Source: Lentisphaeria bacterium (GTDB taxonomy: Bacteria > Verrucomicrobiota > Lentisphaeria > Victivallales > Victivallaceae). From it: a stretch of 63,199 nt of DNA. Position 1 is the first letter of the stretch. Each line of letters begins with the position of its first letter. This document shows, in pieces, positions 4,531 to 38,613 of this stretch. Location of the stretch: assembly GCA_017450705.1 (NCBI GenBank), contig JAFSTC010000045.1:1-63199 (forward strand). The letters run 5' to 3'. A program made the translations under genes and the position numbers. Under the pieces are notes generated by a model. It had not been told where the DNA came from. It saw only the letters and a list, made by a program, of their open reading frames with translations, and did not search any database.

Positions 4531-6717
4531 TCACCAATCCTTCTGCACGGGAGCCCGGCGCATGCGGCGCATGTTCATCAACTGCTCCCGGCGCTGTTTT
4601 TCCTCGTCGTTGAGCATTTTGAGCAGCTGCTCGGCCGTCTTTCCGTCGGTTTTCTCCTGCTTCTCCCCCTCCCCCTGTTGGGGCTGGGCAGGCAATTTTT
4701 CGGGCATTTTGCCCTTTTCGTCTTTGTTTTTTCCGTCCTTTTTCTTCTCCTGCTGAGAACCCTCTTTTTTCTGCTCCTTCTTGTCGGCGTTTTCTCCGCC
4801 GAGGGCCTTGTATGCCGCGTCGAGGTGCTTCTGCTTTTTCTCCTTGTCGGTCTCCTGCCGGGCCTTGTCCAGTTCCTCACGGGCCTTCTTCGCCTGTTCG
4901 CTCAGGCGGTCCTGTTTGAGTTCGTCGGCTTTTTTCCGCAGGTCCTGAGAACTTTGCCGCGCCTGATCGATCGCCTGATCGACGGACTGCCGCTCCTGCT
5001 GTTTGTTCTGCTGCTGGTTCTGCTGCTGGTTCTGCTGCTGGTTCTGCTTCCGGTTCTGCTGATCCTTCCGGTTCTGCTGATCCTTCCGGTCCTGCTGCTG
5101 GTTTTTCTGCTGGTTTTTCTGCTGGTTCTGCTGCTGGTTCTGCTGCTGGTTCTGCTGTTTTTTCTGCTGGTTTTTGTCCCTTGCGTTTTTGGCGTCCTGC
5201 CGGGCTTTTTCCTGCTGTTTTTTCAGATCTTCGATCTGCTTCTTGAGTTCTTCGATCTTTTTCCGGTCGGCGTGGAGCTGCTGAAGATTTCCGGCGGCCT
5301 CGGCGTGGAACTCCCGAGCTTCTCCGATGGAAAGGGCCCGGGCGTAAAGCTCCTCCGCCTCGTCGAGCCTTTTTTTCGCCTCCTTGAGTTTTTCCAGCGC
5401 CGGATCGAGCTGCTGGGCCTGAAGCTGAGAACGGGCGCCGGTCACGACCGCGCGGCCGCCCATGTGCACGCCCGTTCCGATGTTGAAAAGCGAACGGGCC
5501 TGAAGACCGGAACGGTTCTCCGATCTTTTCAAAACTTCCTCGTAAAGCCGCACGGCGTCCCCGTTCCCCTTCAGCTGACGCTCGCGGGCAAGATTGTAAA
5601 GCTCCTCCGGAGTATCGGGCAGTTTCTCCTCCTGCCGGACCGCCGGAACAGCCTGCCGGTCGGCCGCGGGATTTTCCGCCGCGCCGCAAACCAGCAGCGC
5701 GGGAAGCAGAAAGATCACCATGTGTCTTGCCATCGGCCGCTCGGAAATGACGAGATACAAAAGCAGGACGGCGGCGGCAGCGATCAGTGCCAGAGGGAAT
5801 TTTTCTACGGGGATAGTCCTCACGCCGGAAGACTGCTCCGCCGTGGAGAGCGCGCGGATCCTGCGCTGGAGCGCGGCAAGTCCGGTGTCCGTAACGGTGC
5901 TGCGCACGTACATGCCGCCCGTCGCCTCGGCGGACCGGATGAGTTTCGACTCGGCCAGTTTCGTGACGATGAGCTTGCCGCTGCCGTCCCGGCGGAATCC
6001 GCCGCTGCCGTCGGGCACGGGGGCTCCCGCCTGCGGGTCACCCAGACCGACGATGAAAAGCGGCGTATGGCGCTTTTTGAGCTCTGCAAGAATTCGGGCG
6101 CTGTCGCCCTCAAGTTCGTCTCCGTCTGTGAAGAGCACGATGGCCCGGTTGGAGCCGCCGGCGGCTTTGAACGCCCGGGACGCGGCCAGAAGCGCCTGTT
6201 CCAGATTGGTCCCGCCGACGGGCACGAGATCGGGAGAAAGTTCGTCGATGTACTGCTCGAAGGCCACAGGATCCGATGTCAGCGGACACACCGTGTAGGC
6301 GGTCCCGGCAAAGGCGACCAGCCCGAAACGATCCTGCGGATCGCCCTTGACAAGCTCCCGCAGAATGAATTTGGCATGGGCGAGGCGCGAGGGGGCGATG
6401 TCCGTCGCAAGCATGCTCTTGGAAACATCGAAGAGCACCATGATGTCCCGTCCGGGCTGGGAATAGGGAACCATGCGGCTGGTCCAGTACGGACGGGCCG
6501 CCGCCGCGGCAAGAAACAGAAGGACGACGAGAAGCAGAAAGAGCCTGAATTTTCTGAGCCCTTTCGAGAGGATCACGGCATCGGGATCCTCCGCCGCGCT
6601 CCCCAGGAGAAGTTTGAGCTGTTCTCTCCTTTTTCTCCCCGCGCGGCACGCCAGAACGACGACGAGCACGACGACGGGGATCATCCACCAGAAATATTGT
6701 GGATCGTTGAAAGTCAT
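4531..6717 (-). CDS. BatB-BatC fusion: VWA-domain membrane protein with TPR and Q/N-rich tail
   Basis: A 728-residue protein. Two membrane helices (about 10-25 and 57-75) precede a von Willebrand A domain with an intact MIDAS: DVSKS at 97-101, a GGTN loop near 168-171 and TDGDE at 197-201. A third helix (307-325) follows. A second hydrophobic run after Met329 looks like a former signal peptide and leads into a TPR part (ELYNLARERQLKGNGDAVRLYEE) typical of BatC. The remainder is a very hydrophilic K/Q/E-rich region with a Q/N tract. BatB and BatC are normally two genes. An internal start at 5733 cannot be excluded. It has its own promoter at 6795-6822. Confidence 0.85.
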   Translation of the reverse strand: MTFNDPQYFWWMIPVVVLVVVLACRAGRKRREQLKLLLGSAAEDPDAVILSKGLRKFRLFLLLVVLLFLAAAAARPYWTSRMVPYSQPGRDIMVLFDVSKSMLATDIAPSRLAHAKFILRELVKGDPQDRFGLVAFAGTAYTVCPLTSDPVAFEQYIDELSPDLVPVGGTNLEQALLAASRAFKAAGGSNRAIVLFTDGDELEGDSARILAELKKRHTPLFIVGLGDPQAGAPVPDGSGGFRRDGSGKLIVTKLAESKLIRSAEATGGMYVRSTVTDTGLAALQRRIRALSTAEQSSGVRTIPVEKFPLALIAAAAVLLLYLVISERPMARHMVIFLLPALLVCGAAENPAADRQAVPAVRQEEKLPDTPEELYNLARERQLKGNGDAVRLYEEVLKRSENRSGLQARSLFNIGTGVHMGGRAVVTGARSQLQAQQLDPALEKLKEAKKRLDEAEELYARALSIGEAREFHAEAAGNLQQLHADRKKIEELKKQIEDLKKQQEKARQDAKNARDKNQQKKQQNQQQNQQQNQQKNQQKNQQQDRKDQQNRKDQQNRKQNQQQNQQQNQQQNKQQERQSVDQAIDQARQSSQDLRKKADELKQDRLSEQAKKAREELDKARQETDKEKKQKHLDAAYKALGGENADKKEQKKEGSQQEKKKDGKNKDEKGKMPEKLPAQPQQGEGEKQEKTDGKTAEQLLKMLNDEEKQRREQLMNMRRMRRAPVQKDW
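4996..5176. repeat. Q/N-coding trinucleotide-rich tandem repeat
   Basis: Imperfect tandem repetition of a unit reading CTGCTGGTT on the plus strand. It encodes runs of Gln-Gln-Asn, Gln-Lys-Asn and Arg-Lys-Asp-Gln-Gln in the BatB-BatC fusion. The repeat stays in frame and is interrupted by Lys and Arg codons. The segment is prone to slippage, so repeat number may differ between strains. Confidence 0.9.
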
Positions 6718-30827: not shown

Positions 30828-33674
30828 GTGGCTTTTTTTCTTAAACGCGGGGATACGTTTTCGGGATGCGAGATCCTGTCGCTGTGCGGCAGGGGGGCCT
30901 TCGGCGTCACCTATCTCGCCCGGACTCCCCTCGGGCGCAGGATCGCCATAAAAATCGTCGGCGCGACCGACAGACCGGACCGGGAACTCAACGGCATCCG
31001 GAACTACATGCGGATCGCGGAGTCTCACCCCGATCTGCTGCAGATCTTCCACGTCGGCGAAACGGAGGACGGCTTCTTCTACACCATGGAAGCCGCCGAC
31101 GACTGCGGAACCGGCCCCGACTATCTCCCGGCGACCCTGGGCAACCTGATGCGGCTCGGCAGAAAGTTCTCCCCCGACGAGGCCGTCGGGATCGCCCGGG
31201 AACTTCTGGCGGGCGCGGGGATCCTCCACGACGCCGGGCTGATCCACCGCGACATCAAGCCCGACAACATCATCTTCATCGGCGGAAAACCCAAACTCAG
31301 CGACCCCGGGCTCGTCATCACCGAGGGGGAACCGGCCTCCCTCGCGGGCACGCCCGGCTTCATCCCCCCGGAAATGATCGAAAACGCCGCCCCCGCCGAC
31401 AGACAGGCCGATCTGTACGCCATCGGCAAAGTCTTTTACTGCATGATCACGGGGTACTCTCCCGGACGGTACCCCGAGCTGCCGAAAGATATGCCCGTGG
31501 AGATCTGCCGCCAGATATTCCCCGCCCTTTCGGCCATGTGCAACCGCGATCCGTCCAAACGGTTCCCCTCCGCCGCCGCCTTCCGCGCCGGACTGCCCGA
31601 AAAGTTCGCCCGTCCCACCCGGCTCGAAAAGTTCCGCACCGATTTCCGGGACTGGCGGCTTCTCAATCCCGGCAAGGCCCGGCTCCTTTTGGGTGCGATC
31701 GTGACCGCATGTCTCCTTTTGACGGCCGCCGCGGCGGGCGCCGCATTTTGGCACGTCCGGGAGCTCCGGCTCTCCGCCGAACGGCAGCGGTACATCGACG
31801 CCTTTCTTGCGATCGACGGCGGCCGGAAATCTTTGCTCCGGCTGCAGCTGGAGGTCTACGCCCCCGAGGCCAAAGGCCCGTTCGAGCGTCTGTCGCGGAA
31901 ACTTGAAAACGCGCGGCGGCGAAACGACCTGAAACAGGCTGCGGCATACTGCCGAAACCTGCGGGATCTTCTGAGCAGCCTTGCCGCAAAACTCCTCCCC
32001 TCCCCCGCCGTAAAGGCCGACGCGCTCCCGGGCGACTTCAGTTCCGTCGCCGCCGTGCGGGGATTTCTCTCGACGCCCCTTGCCGCCTACCTCGACCCCG
32101 GTCTCGAAAAGGACTGCCGCAAACGCCTCGCCGACGCGGAAGAGAAAGTTTATCTCGGCTGGAGCGGTCCCCGGTGCGACCGCGACTGGGACACCCATCA
32201 GGACTACGACCACCCCATGGTCTTCGTCCCCCCCGGCGCGGTGAGGATGCGCCACAGCGGCAAGATCGCCCGGATCCCCTATCACTTCTGGATGTGCAGG
32301 ATCGAGATATCCCACGAAGGCTTCACCCGGTTACTGGACATCGCGCCCCAAAAGTCCCCCTTCCCCAACACGCCGCTTGAGCGCGCTTCCTGGAACGACA
32401 TCCTCTTTTACTGCTTTCAAATCGACAAGCTTCTGCGATCCCGCGGTCAGCTGCCGCCCGGGTACATCGTCCGCCCCCCGACCGAAGAAGAGTGGGAATA
32501 CGCGGCCGAGAACGCGTGGCTGGGGCCCGACACCGCCCCGCTGGAAGACCGCGCCGTCATCAAAAGCAATTCCAACAACAGGAGCATGCCCCCCGGCAGC
32601 AAACTGCCGAACAAACTGGGGCTCCTGGATATGTACGGCAACGTGGCCGAGATCGTCCGGCCCTTCGAAAAGCCGGCGCTGCACAACGCGGTCATGGTGC
32701 GGGGCGGCTCCTACAGAAGCAAGCCCGAGAGCTGTTTCCGGCAAGTCCCCTATCTGATGTATCAGTTCATCCCCTTCGACATCGGTTCCCGCATGGTCAT
32801 CGCCCCCGGCGACGCAAGCTACTACGACCGGCATTTCTTCCTCAGCGGTCCCGTTCAGCTCCGGACGCGGGGCAAAGTCTATGAGCTCATCGGCGGCAAC
32901 GTGGGTTCTTTCACGTGGGAGACATCCCATGACCTCTGTCAGCTCCTCGGCGGGCGGCTGGCGGAGATCGAGGATCAGGACCATCTGGACTTTTTTATCC
33001 GCAACATGCCCCTCGCCGCAGGCGGCTGGGGTTGCTTCATCGGCGGGAAAAAGACCGGCGGCAAATGGAAATGGCTCCGCAGCGGTCGGGAGATCGACTT
33101 CGGCAAATGGCATCCGGCCGCCCGGGAGAATGACGGAAAAAACTACCTGACGCTCAGAGAAAAAAAATGGAAGCCCGAAAAAGACTACCGGTCTGGGATC
33201 TTCCTGTGCGAGTGGGATGAGAAGGATTTTCCCCGCCGCAACGATCAGCTGCTCACCGGTAAGAAACTCCCCGGCGAACTCGAGCGTTTCACCGTCGGCG
33301 ACAGGACCTTCATGCTCATCGATTCGCCGATGCTCTGGAATGCGGCCTGCCGCTTCTGCGAACTCCTCGGCGGACGGCTCGCCTGTCCGGAGACGCCGGA
33401 ACTGCGCGAAGCCCTGATCAGGAAACTCGACGCGTACAGGGACCGGAGGATCATGCTCGGCGGCTACGCCAAAAGAGACAAGTGGTTCTGGCTCTCCGGC
33501 AAAGAGTGCACTCTGAAATTGAAAAAAGACAACGATTTTCCCATTCCCAGCAGGAACAGGAACTTCGTCATGCTGAAGGAGGGGGAGTTTTACGACGCTC
33601 AGTACGGCCGGCTTTTTCTGTGCGAATGGCCGAATCGAGGGCTCCGTCCTCGAGTTGCCGGTAATCGGCGATGA
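30828..33674 (+). CDS. Membrane Ser/Thr protein kinase with FGE-sulfatase-like and two C-type-lectin-like domains
   Basis: A 948-residue protein. The kinase domain (about 8-260) has a Gly loop (GRGAFG, 21-26), the ATP-binding Lys42, HRDIKPDN (140-147), a PPE motif (180-182) and DLYAIG. The metal-binding DFG is DPG at 159-161. One membrane helix (about 285-309) is followed by a helical linker. A formylglycine-generating-enzyme-like domain (about 463-660; VFVPPG, PTEEEWEYAA, LLDMYGNVAE, VRGGSYRS) precedes two tandem C-type-lectin-like domains (about 684-800 and 815-940), each with CxLLGGRLA and ending in LFLCEW or IFLCEW. A periplasmic ligand sensor is inferred. The start is GTG 30828 with GGGGG seven nt upstream. 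The last 107 bp overlap the opposite sigma gene. Confidence 0.88.
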   Translation: MAFFLKRGDTFSGCEILSLCGRGAFGVTYLARTPLGRRIAIKIVGATDRPDRELNGIRNYMRIAESHPDLLQIFHVGETEDGFFYTMEAADDCGTGPDYLPATLGNLMRLGRKFSPDEAVGIARELLAGAGILHDAGLIHRDIKPDNIIFIGGKPKLSDPGLVITEGEPASLAGTPGFIPPEMIENAAPADRQADLYAIGKVFYCMITGYSPGRYPELPKDMPVEICRQIFPALSAMCNRDPSKRFPSAAAFRAGLPEKFARPTRLEKFRTDFRDWRLLNPGKARLLLGAIVTACLLLTAAAAGAAFWHVRELRLSAERQRYIDAFLAIDGGRKSLLRLQLEVYAPEAKGPFERLSRKLENARRRNDLKQAAAYCRNLRDLLSSLAAKLLPSPAVKADALPGDFSSVAAVRGFLSTPLAAYLDPGLEKDCRKRLADAEEKVYLGWSGPRCDRDWDTHQDYDHPMVFVPPGAVRMRHSGKIARIPYHFWMCRIEISHEGFTRLLDIAPQKSPFPNTPLERASWNDILFYCFQIDKLLRSRGQLPPGYIVRPPTEEEWEYAAENAWLGPDTAPLEDRAVIKSNSNNRSMPPGSKLPNKLGLLDMYGNVAEIVRPFEKPALHNAVMVRGGSYRSKPESCFRQVPYLMYQFIPFDIGSRMVIAPGDASYYDRHFFLSGPVQLRTRGKVYELIGGNVGSFTWETSHDLCQLLGGRLAEIEDQDHLDFFIRNMPLAAGGWGCFIGGKKTGGKWKWLRSGREIDFGKWHPAARENDGKNYLTLREKKWKPEKDYRSGIFLCEWDEKDFPRRNDQLLTGKKLPGELERFTVGDRTFMLIDSPMLWNAACRFCELLGGRLACPETPELREALIRKLDAYRDRRIMLGGYAKRDKWFWLSGKECTLKLKKDNDFPIPSRNRNFVMLKEGEFYDAQYGRLFLCEWPNRGLRPRVAGNRR

Positions 33675-36301: not shown

Positions 36302-36329
36302 TTGATTTTACGGAAAAAAGGCGTATAGT
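36302..36329 (+). promoter_or_regulatory. Promoter of the exonuclease gene
   Basis: TTGATT (36302-36307), a 16-nt spacer, TATAGT (36324-36329). The transcript would carry a leader of about 130 nt before the exonuclease start. Confidence 0.6.
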
Positions 36330-36463
36330 AAAGTCGAGGTGTTCAGGGTTGGGGATTTTCAGGCACCTTAAACGCAATTTCTCCTCTTCATAATTACTCC
36401 TCTAAGTGTCTGGAGAGACTCGGCCTTGGACGCCTCCTTTTTTTCGATTTCGCGCACAGGGGG

Positions 36464-37486
36464 ATGATGCCGCAGATGGACAAGGCCGTTTTGATCGACG
36501 CATACAGTCAGATCTTCCGTTCGTTTTACGCCATCCGCGCCCTCACCGATCCGCAGGGCCGCCCCGTCAATGCGCTTTTCGTCTTCACAAAGCTTTTGCT
36601 CTGCATCGAAAAGGAACATCCGTGCCCGACGGGAGCCATGCTTTTCGACTGCGGCAAGGTGAGTTTCCGTCTGGCGGTCGCTCCGGGATACAAGGCCAAC
36701 CGCCCTCCGATGCCCGACGAACTCAGACAGCAGATGCCCGCCATCCGCGAAATGGCGGCGGCCTTCGGCTGGCCGCTTCTTTCTGCGGAAAATTACGAAG
36801 CCGACGATCTCATCGGCGGCTTCGCCCGGGCTCTTCCCGGGGAAGTCCTGATCGTGACGTCGGACAAGGATCTCTCCCAGCTCGTCGACGACCGGATATC
36901 CATTCTCGTCCCGGCCAAGGGATCTGCCGGCGGCTTTGCGCTGCGCCGGAAAGAGGAGGTCGTCGAAAAGTTCGGCGTCGGCCCGGAGCTTGTCGCCGAC
37001 TATCTCGCCCTGGTGGGCGACACGGCGGACAACATCCCCGGCGTTCCCGGAATCGGTCCCAAGAGCGCGGCCGCCCTGCTCAACGAATACGGTCCCGTCG
37101 AAGGCTGGATCGATCGATTGGAAAAGCTCGACGGCAGCCGGTTCGCCGCAAAACTTGCCGGGCAGGAGAGGCGGCTCCGGGACAATCTGGTGCTCGTCCG
37201 GCTGAAGACCACGCTCCCCGATGAGTTTGCGGATGTGCCGGGGACTCTCGCCCGGCGGCCGCCGGACTGGGAAAAGATCGCCGCATTGTGCCGGGAACAC
37301 GCCTTCAACGGCATACTGAAGACCCTTCCCCTCCCGGCGGCCCGGGAACCGGAGCCGGAGGAGCCCGCCGCGGCGGAAGAGCCGGATCTCTTCTCCGCCC
37401 TGATGTCTCCCGTCCCCGAAAAGAGCGAAAAGCCCGCGCCGCCGGCGGAAGAAGAGGATCTTCCGATCCAGGGCACCCTTTTCTGA
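36464..37486 (+). CDS. Stand-alone 5'-3' exonuclease (Pol I N-terminal/FEN-like)
   Basis: A 340-residue protein with the PIN-like and helix-3-turn-helix exonuclease folds of DNA polymerase I's N-terminal domain. Visible are LIDAYSQIFRSFYA, YKANRPPMPDELRQQMP, the acidic YEADDLIGGFA, TSDKDLSQLV, GDTADNIPGVPGIGPKSA and a basic helical arch. It would process flaps, RNA primers or repair intermediates. No polymerase domain is attached. After residue 290 an acidic Pro/Glu-rich tail ends in IQGTLF, which fits the Q-x-x-L-F clamp-binding pattern. The start is uncertain among ATG 36464, 36467 and 36476; the homology begins at the last. Confidence 0.85.
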   Translation: MMPQMDKAVLIDAYSQIFRSFYAIRALTDPQGRPVNALFVFTKLLLCIEKEHPCPTGAMLFDCGKVSFRLAVAPGYKANRPPMPDELRQQMPAIREMAAAFGWPLLSAENYEADDLIGGFARALPGEVLIVTSDKDLSQLVDDRISILVPAKGSAGGFALRRKEEVVEKFGVGPELVADYLALVGDTADNIPGVPGIGPKSAAALLNEYGPVEGWIDRLEKLDGSRFAAKLAGQERRLRDNLVLVRLKTTLPDEFADVPGTLARRPPDWEKIAALCREHAFNGILKTLPLPAAREPEPEEPAAAEEPDLFSALMSPVPEKSEKPAPPAEEEDLPIQGTLF

Positions 37487-37523: not shown

Positions 37524-37590
37524 GACAAAACCGGTCAAAATCGGTGCAAACATTTTTCACTCAAATGTTTAACTTGCGTCAAAACATCAA

Positions 37591-37616
37591 AATACTGCGA
37601 AATATTTCGCAGTATT
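37591..37616. repeat. Perfect 26-bp palindrome
   Basis: AATACTGCGAAAT joined directly to its reverse complement ATTTCGCAGTATT. It is centred 68 bp upstream of the -35 box at 37672. A spacer-less palindrome of this length fits a dimeric regulator site better than a terminator. Confidence 0.85.
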
Positions 37617-37671
37617 TCCGATTTTTCAACTAAGGCAAAACGCGATTTTCGCCCTTTTTTCGCCCGAAAAC

Positions 37672-37699
37672 TTGACTTTTCTGACCAGTCCGTTATAGT
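37672..37699 (+). promoter_or_regulatory. Promoter of the hairpin-rich transcript
   Basis: TTGACT (37672-37677), a 16-nt spacer, TATAGT (37694-37699). No protein gene of normal size follows it before the next promoter at 37913. Confidence 0.6.
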
Positions 37700-37705
37700 A
37701 GATTG

Positions 37706-37912
37706 CAGAAGGAGGCAAGGAACCGCCTTCCTCCGTCCGGCCGCGGGAGAGTGATCCGGCGCCGGACCGACGTGTTTTTTTTCGACGGCGTCCCGCCGTC
37801 TTGCGTGAGGAGGAGTGATTATGAAGCCCCCGGACCGGGTCAAGCGGTTTCCGGTCCGGGGGCGGGCCGGGAAACGGGAAACTCCGCCCTCTCCGCTTTT
37901 CCTCCGACGGCA
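37706..37912 (+). ncRNA. Candidate structured non-coding RNA
   Basis: A segment of about 200 nt between two promoters with four consecutive stem-loops. They are 37711-37720/37726-37734 (9 bp with one bulged C), 37735-37741/37761-37767 (7 bp), 37784-37790/37794-37800 (7 bp, 3-nt loop) and 37826-37838/37851-37863 (13 bp, 12-nt loop). Eight T at 37775-37782 follow the second stem, so a short terminated form of about 75 nt is possible. It does not match tmRNA, RNase P or 4.5S RNA motifs that I can recognise. A 31-residue basic peptide could be encoded at 37821-37916; its start codon lies right before the 13-bp stem. Confidence 0.4.
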
Positions 37913-37941
37913 TTGAAAAGAAGGCGTTTCCGTGGTATATT
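37913..37941 (+). promoter_or_regulatory. Promoter of the FKBP gene
   Basis: TTGAAA (37913-37918), a 17-nt spacer, TATATT (37936-37941). Six nt after the -10 box an in-frame ATG (37948) opens a longer version of the FKBP frame. Confidence 0.65.
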
Positions 37942-37995
37942 AGGCGAATGCCGCCGAAACGGCTGAAAAGGGTAACTTCAAACATTTGCGGGAAA

Positions 37996-38613
37996 ATGAC
38001 GATGAACGATATCGAAAAGATGAGCTACGCCCTGGGGATGAACATCGCGGGGAACCTCTCGGAACTGCCCATTGAGATCGACACGGCCTGTCTGCAGCGG
38101 GCGCTGAAAACAGTCCTCGCGGGAGAATCCGCGGAACTGCCCCGTGAGGAGTATGCGAAATACATGCAGAAATTCCAGCAGGAGGTCCGGCAGGCCGGCG
38201 AGAAGGCGGTGAAACAGGCCGCAGAAAGCAACCGCGCCGCGGGACGGGATTTCCTCGCGGCCAACGCGAAAAAGGAAGGCGTGAAAACAACGGCGTCGGG
38301 TCTCCAGTACCAGGTGCTGTCGCAGGGATCCGGTCCCAAACCCGCGAAACATCAGAGCGTCCGGGTCCATTACACGGGGCGTCTGATCGACGGAAAGGTT
38401 TTCGACAGTTCCGTCCAGCGGGGAGAACCCGCGGAATTCGGCCTCACGCAGGTCATCGCCGGGTGGACCGAGGGTCTCCAGCTCATGCCCGTCGGCTCGA
38501 AATACCGCTTTTTCATTCCCGCGGAACTGGCCTACGGCGACCGCGGCGCCCCGGGAGCCATCCCGCCCGCAGCCGCACTGATCTTCGACGTCGAGCTTCT
38601 GGCAATCATCTGA
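37996..38613 (+). CDS. FKBP-type peptidyl-prolyl cis-trans isomerase (FkpA/Mip-like)
   Basis: A 205-residue protein. The N-terminal helical dimerisation domain (MSYALGMNIAGNLSELPIEID ...) is joined by a long helix to a C-terminal FKBP domain (VRVHYTGRLIDGKVFDSS, VIAGWTEGLQLMPVGSKYRF, IPAELAYGDRG, LIFDVELL). It speeds proline isomerisation during folding. Unlike FkpA and Mip it has no signal peptide, so it would be cytoplasmic as annotated. ATG 37996 has GCGGGA close upstream; 38002 fits the spacing better, and a leaderless start at 37948 is possible. It is probably co-transcribed with glyQS 43 nt downstream. Confidence 0.9.
   Translation: MTMNDIEKMSYALGMNIAGNLSELPIEIDTACLQRALKTVLAGESAELPREEYAKYMQKFQQEVRQAGEKAVKQAAESNRAAGRDFLAANAKKEGVKTTASGLQYQVLSQGSGPKPAKHQSVRVHYTGRLIDGKVFDSSVQRGEPAEFGLTQVIAGWTEGLQLMPVGSKYRFFIPAELAYGDRGAPGAIPPAAALIFDVELLAII

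Follow-up and report, generated by a model that had tools for sequence, protein, structure and literature searches.

A hairpin-rich segment of a Lentisphaeria bacterium as a likely decoy partner of a family-wide small RNA

The segment at positions 37672-37912 of the window (the whole analyzed stretch of 63,199 nt, contig JAFSTC010000045.1 of a Lentisphaeria bacterium) appears to specify a small RNA, which is likely the decoy partner of a newly noticed, family-wide small RNA (sRNA) rather than a peptide-coding RNA. The family-wide RNA is called RNA A here, and the RNA of the segment RNA B. Comparison among relatives showed that both RNA units are conserved, that both helices covary, that the complementarity between the two RNAs is kept, and that B units encode no conserved peptide. 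We think it reasonably probable that A acts as a regulatory sRNA directed against ribosome sites and that B is a non-coding RNA sponge (decoy) for A, not a peptide maker. The features in the window are as follows.

36302-36329, plus strand: promoter of RNA A, TTGATT-16-TATAGT (from the sequence; boxes also upstream of A in relatives)
36336-36444, plus strand: RNA A, a conserved sRNA with paired 5' and 3' arms and a T7 run at its end (covariance model)
36372-36406, plus strand: loop of RNA A, unpaired and nearly invariant, with two anti-Shine-Dalgarno CUCCUC blocks
36464-37486, plus strand: 5'-3' exonuclease gene between A and B (Pfam PF02739/PF01367; synteny)
37672-37699, plus strand: promoter of RNA B, TTGACT-16-TATAGT (from the sequence)
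37706-37809, plus strand: leader of RNA B, with two stems, T8, and a small stem (fold and comparison with locus L307 of genome G020)
37810-37826, plus strand: A-complementary tract GAGGAGTGATTATGAAG, an imitation ribosome-binding site and AUG AAG (conserved in B units; predicted to pair with RNA A)
37827-37862, plus strand: hairpin of RNA B, strong, 13 bp if G37826-C37863 is included (found in 14 of the 15 units tested)
37821-37916, plus strand: ATG frame of 31 codons, with GAGGAG as ribosome site; its peptide is not conserved
37913-38613, plus strand: FKBP gene, outside the RNA pair (own promoter at 37913-37941; coding from 38002)

Promoter, fold, and downstream gene of the segment

The promoter that the original prediction had placed at the head of the segment was present, with the -35 box TTGACT at 37672-37677, the -10 box TATAGT at 37694-37699, and a score of 10/12; the scan of 3.8 kb gave 4 promoter-like sites where 0.8 were expected. 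All four claimed stem-loops were found in their places (37711-37734, 37735-37767, 37784-37800, and 37827-37862), the last forming 13 perfect Watson-Crick pairs once G37826-C37863 is counted, and the claimed T8 run was located at 37775-37782, inside the leader of RNA B. The fold energy of 37703-37912 was -109.2 kcal/mol, compared to -93.7 ± 5.2 kcal/mol for shuffled sequences (z = -2.98; 1 of 200 shuffles did as well), an excess that is significant yet modest given the GC-rich DNA. Between the exonuclease gene and the RNA B promoter there is also a perfect 12-bp AT-rich palindrome, AAATACTGCGAAATATTTCGCAGTATTT (37590-37617), which is terminator-like on both strands.

The earlier statement that no known RNA family was apparent held when checked against Rfam 15: no family reached its gathering threshold in the window, including RNA A and RNA B, and the segment gave only sub-threshold noise. 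Its best-scoring family, the gntR-DTE RNA (RF02989, about 37771-37832), was rejected because it scored 20.9 bits where 63.6 are required (E = 0.13), which is chance level. The tRNA and tmRNA scans gave no match for the segment.

RNA B could also be the 5' leader of FKBP or of another downstream gene, with its hairpins acting as a regulator or attenuator, and in the window FKBP does come immediately after it, with the strand in common. FKBP, however, has its own promoter, as had been predicted (TTGAAA-17-TATATT, 37913-37941); relatives align to the gene from the ATG at 38002, and DNA similarity at this locus in 60 relatives showed no conservation of the segment ahead of FKBP. Other B units are located beside unrelated genes, and in genomes G010 and G033 the gene downstream of B is on the opposite strand, so that B is not a leader there. 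We regard the leader reading as very improbable. The FKBP promoter itself (37908-37942, TTGAAAA...GTTTCCGTGGTATATTA) matched, at 28-31 of 35 bases, promoters that serve unrelated genes elsewhere in the order (L002, L003, L006, and L007); such promoters form a recurrent class with a conserved spacer.

RNA A and its complementarity to RNA B

A search of this genome with the tract GAGGAGTNATTATGAAG returned two perfect matches only, one at 37810-37826 and the other 1.4 kb away on the opposite strand at 36386-36402, in the loop of RNA A. RNA A is about 105 nt long and, judged from sequence features only, has its own promoter, a covarying terminal helix, and a terminator; its 5' end was estimated from the -10 box, and the model match covers 36339-36437. 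In relatives, the order of elements is promoter, 5' arm, loop GCAAUUUCUCCUCUUCAUAAUUACUCCUC, 3' arm, and T-run. All nine model pairs of the arms showed changes on both sides among 32 sequences, with a covariation score above all 500 shuffles and every slid control, and 21 columns of the loop were invariant in 32 sequences. Compared with Rfam, RNA A gave no match even at E = 1.

Of 197 genomes of the class, 48 contained RNA A according to the covariance model, and these belong to a single family and 11 genera; an exact-pattern scan found it in 34 named contigs, all of Lentisphaerota/Victivallales. Victivallis vadensis was among them, and the family is therefore named Victivallaceae. Within the genus, RNA A usually lies just upstream of the 5'-3' exonuclease gene, as in the window. 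The length of the spacer between the two CUCCUC blocks differs in some lineages and both blocks are retained, which points to these anti-Shine-Dalgarno blocks as the core of RNA A. One genome, G202, contains two copies of RNA A 5.6 kb apart (L202 and L203; C17:199-288 and 5763-5852), and in both of them the spacer between the blocks is shortened to TTCATA.

The tract of RNA B (37810-37826) matches the loop of RNA A (36386-36402) with 16 Watson-Crick pairs and one G-U pair. Over nine A/B pairs (153 positions, including those of G008, whose tract without a hairpin was later excluded as a B unit), there were 145 Watson-Crick pairs, 5 G-U pairs, and 3 mismatches. Among the genomes that carry B, RNA A varies at two positions only (A for U in G010, C for U in G015), and RNA B has the complementary base in both cases; the standard B tract is predicted to bind these altered loops about 4 kcal/mol more weakly. 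As only two such events exist, this co-variation is of limited strength. For the A loops of G003, G018, G030, and G032, which are altered, no complementary B unit was found. G020 and G026 carry B, and in their incomplete assemblies neither RNA A nor the exonuclease gene that accompanies it was found.

Among about 12,600 short stretches tested within the window, RNA B was the second best partner of the A loop, with A's own antisense left aside. We consider the pairing of A with B well supported by these comparisons. The strongest predicted duplex with the A loop, A itself aside, was formed by a purine-rich site, GGGGAGGGGAGGAGTTTTGCGG, on the minus strand of the window at 31970-32009 (-30.1 kcal/mol).

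RNA B units in related genomes

In RNA B, the strong hairpin follows directly 3' of the 17-nt tract, and a 65-bp piece comprising the ribosome site, ATG AAG, and the hairpin matched G020, the closest relative, at an unrelated place. B units were found in G000 (this genome), G001 (two copies), G010, G015, G017, G020 (three copies, one of them degenerate), G026, G029, and G033, and three Victivallis genomes (G226, G227, and G220) have weaker forms; the range of RNA B is thus only about ten genomes of the genus, besides the weaker Victivallis forms. Constant in these units are the 17-nt tract and the adjacent hairpin, whose sequence varies freely while its pairing is kept. The hairpin measured 11-17 bp in 14 of the 15 tested units, which were recognized partly by that hairpin; a leave-out model, random window places, and viral tract matches served as controls. 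Hairpins of at least 10 bp occurred at 3.3% of random window places.

All 11 model pairs of the B hairpin had changes on both sides, so the check for covariance in related genomes that had been proposed came out in favor of the hairpin. A leave-out model (R3), trained without G000 and G020, recovered the window at 37810-37862 with E = 2e-9. The earlier suggestion of a possible new small RNA was thus supported, the unit of tract and 13-bp hairpin recurring in relatives with compensatory changes in its helix. The B alignments A2 and A4 were discarded because MAFFT had gapped the hairpin arms, and models R2 and R3 use the hairpin arms with loops cut to 4 nt.

In the aligned orthologous loci and in the duplicate, flanks or hairpin sequence had diverged while the tract and the pairing were kept. 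G010, G033, and G017 carry B at one orthologous place beside mraY, with diverged surroundings, and G001 shows a recent duplication in which promoter and tract were kept and the hairpin is different. One copy of G020, L307, has the layout of the window: a promoter (TTGAAA...TATAGT), a leader with a T-run, a small hairpin, the tract, and a hairpin with a UCAAGCG loop, the distance from the -10 box to the tract being about 110 nt in both. The two leaders share this layout and hardly any sequence. Given this copy, the whole reported segment is probably one unit in the clade of the window and G020.

Some candidates were rejected as B units. The tract of G008 has no hairpin. A tract after dnaK in G024, which had been a member of model R2 and not of the leave-out model R3, was set aside because dnaK in a Victivallis species is also followed by a similar hairpin with a poor tract. 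The GC-rich hairpin preceded by a tract-like sequence 3' of dnaK thus occurs in two genera (L153 in G024 and L306 in G225) and is probably a terminator-like element of dnaK, not B. A phage origin of the pair was likewise dismissed, as none of the 17 exact tract matches in viral contigs had the hairpin and no RNA A was present in viral contigs. G007 contains a unit that resembles B (L287, C292:2277-2337), in which the tract is shortened, GAGGAGTGATGAAGAGG, and the hairpin is strong; the A loop predicted from this tract, CCUCUUCAUCACUCCUC, was not found in the incomplete G007 assembly, nor was RNA A by synteny.

The 31-codon frame with a strong ribosome site, as originally described, is real and can also be read from an in-frame GTG at 37815. 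A start codon opens the frame in 15 of 16 homologous or candidate B units, and the peptides encoded after the tract in these 16 units are unrelated and 9 to 143 residues long, with no conserved encoded peptide found among them. The start-codon signal common to B units would thus reflect pairing with A or mimicry of a start, not a product. We also considered whether B is a short mRNA for a small or leader peptide whose translation is repressed by A, on the model of a type I toxin-antitoxin or leader-peptide system. The good ribosome site and the start codon (ATG or GTG) kept in B agree with such an mRNA, as does the fact that the A loop covers exactly these two elements, and AUG/GUG variation is typical of start codons; the unrelated peptides argue against it, as do the strong hairpin, which in most units starts from the second or third codon, and the two G001 copies, in which the same promoter and tract precede different peptides. 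This makes a short mRNA quite unlikely. Of the original interpretation, the small RNA was supported and the peptide-coding or dual-function role was not; the ribosome site and start codon, whose relation to RNA A it had missed, are better explained as the antisense of the RNA A loop.

The complementarity could, alternatively, be a by-product, the B tract being simply the consensus ribosome site and start context of these genomes, which the A loop also targets, and B an unrelated hairpin RNA or a chance occurrence. Near matches to the tract do occur at ordinary gene starts, and V. vadensis has an exact one (L160). The leave-out result, the absence of the hairpin from all viral tract matches, the agreement of B with both changes in A, and the persistence of the B unit at orthologous sites where no gene product is conserved speak against coincidence, and we consider this explanation unlikely.

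Putative roles of the RNA pair

As a sponge for A, RNA B would present an imitation translation start (GAGGAG, a spacer, and AUG AAG) held open beside a strong hairpin, which may protect B or keep the tract open. The loop of A is the antisense of a start site, and A would repress mRNAs by covering their ribosome-binding sites. Both RNAs would be transcribed from the promoters described above. A start site carrying GAGGAGUAAUUAUGAAG would be repressed by A, and co-expressed B, pairing with A over 17 nt, would titrate or destabilize A and relieve the repression. The family-wide presence of RNA A and the patchy one of RNA B suggest the role of regulator for A and that of modulator for B, so that B would act on A and not the reverse.

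The same distribution bears on a different arrangement, in which the two RNAs control ribosomes instead of each other: B would draw off 30S subunits as a decoy start site, and A, by imitating the tail of the 16S rRNA, would free B or compete with ribosomes. B does imitate an idealized initiation site, its hairpin lying shortly after the start codon, and the two CUCCUC blocks of the A loop resemble the anti-Shine-Dalgarno tail; A, however, is family-wide and B patchy, so A is unlikely to exist only to antagonize B, and we give the ribosome decoy little credence. Slimmer still is the prospect that the pair controls translation initiation in Victivallaceae, with the B decoy capturing 30S subunits and A, as a double mimic of the 16S tail, releasing or replacing ribosomes.

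Since no conserved mRNA target of A was established, the regulatory role proposed for A rests on its loop. The second gene of an ECF-sigma operon has a ribosome site complementary to A in one sub-clade only; the sigma/anti-sigma operon was for this reason rejected as a universal target, and the gene after the ECF sigma factor, which encodes a small protein, probably an anti-sigma factor, is a possible lineage-specific mRNA target. Its ribosome site was near-complementary to A at L221, L222, L227, L230, and L064, including the local spacer variant of A in G014. In cultured V. vadensis, the exact 17-nt tract stands at the start of a long gene frame (L160, C30:3867-3883; MKMSKSAWPVMIVSQELN...), and this frame is a candidate mRNA target of A.

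A comparable arrangement is found in Caulobacter crescentus, where the CrfA sponge masks the anti-Shine-Dalgarno motif of the SisA-D (alpha-r8) sRNAs (PMC12559287). CrfA is one sponge for four sibling sRNAs, with Hfq and experimental proof (PMC12559287). There an independently transcribed RNA pairs with anti-Shine-Dalgarno sRNAs, and the same is proposed here from sequence, A corresponding to SisA and B to CrfA. No sequence relation was seen between the two systems, the phylum is different, and here one A is accompanied by one to three B units. Qrr is not known to be an anti-start-site sRNA. QrrX, an experimentally shown sponge of the Qrr1-4 sRNAs in Vibrio cholerae, bears a looser resemblance to the A/B pair (PMC9732341). 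AbcR1/AbcR2 and other alphaproteobacterial sRNAs are reported to have anti-Shine-Dalgarno loops (PMC8844928). Like A, they have an unpaired pyrimidine-rich loop able to cover ribosome sites; loop sequence, fold, and phylum differ, and the A loop additionally covers the spacer and the start codon and is nearly invariant over about 25 nt.

No characterized sRNA of Lentisphaerota was found in the open literature searched. With the pair described here, Lentisphaerota would gain a regulatory RNA that is conserved and whose anti-start-site loop hardly varies, together with a partner RNA that copies a start site; the loop and its partner offer a concrete pairing for compensatory mutation. The pair also carries a warning: what looks like a small gene, a short open frame behind a strong ribosome site, can be an element for RNA pairing instead.
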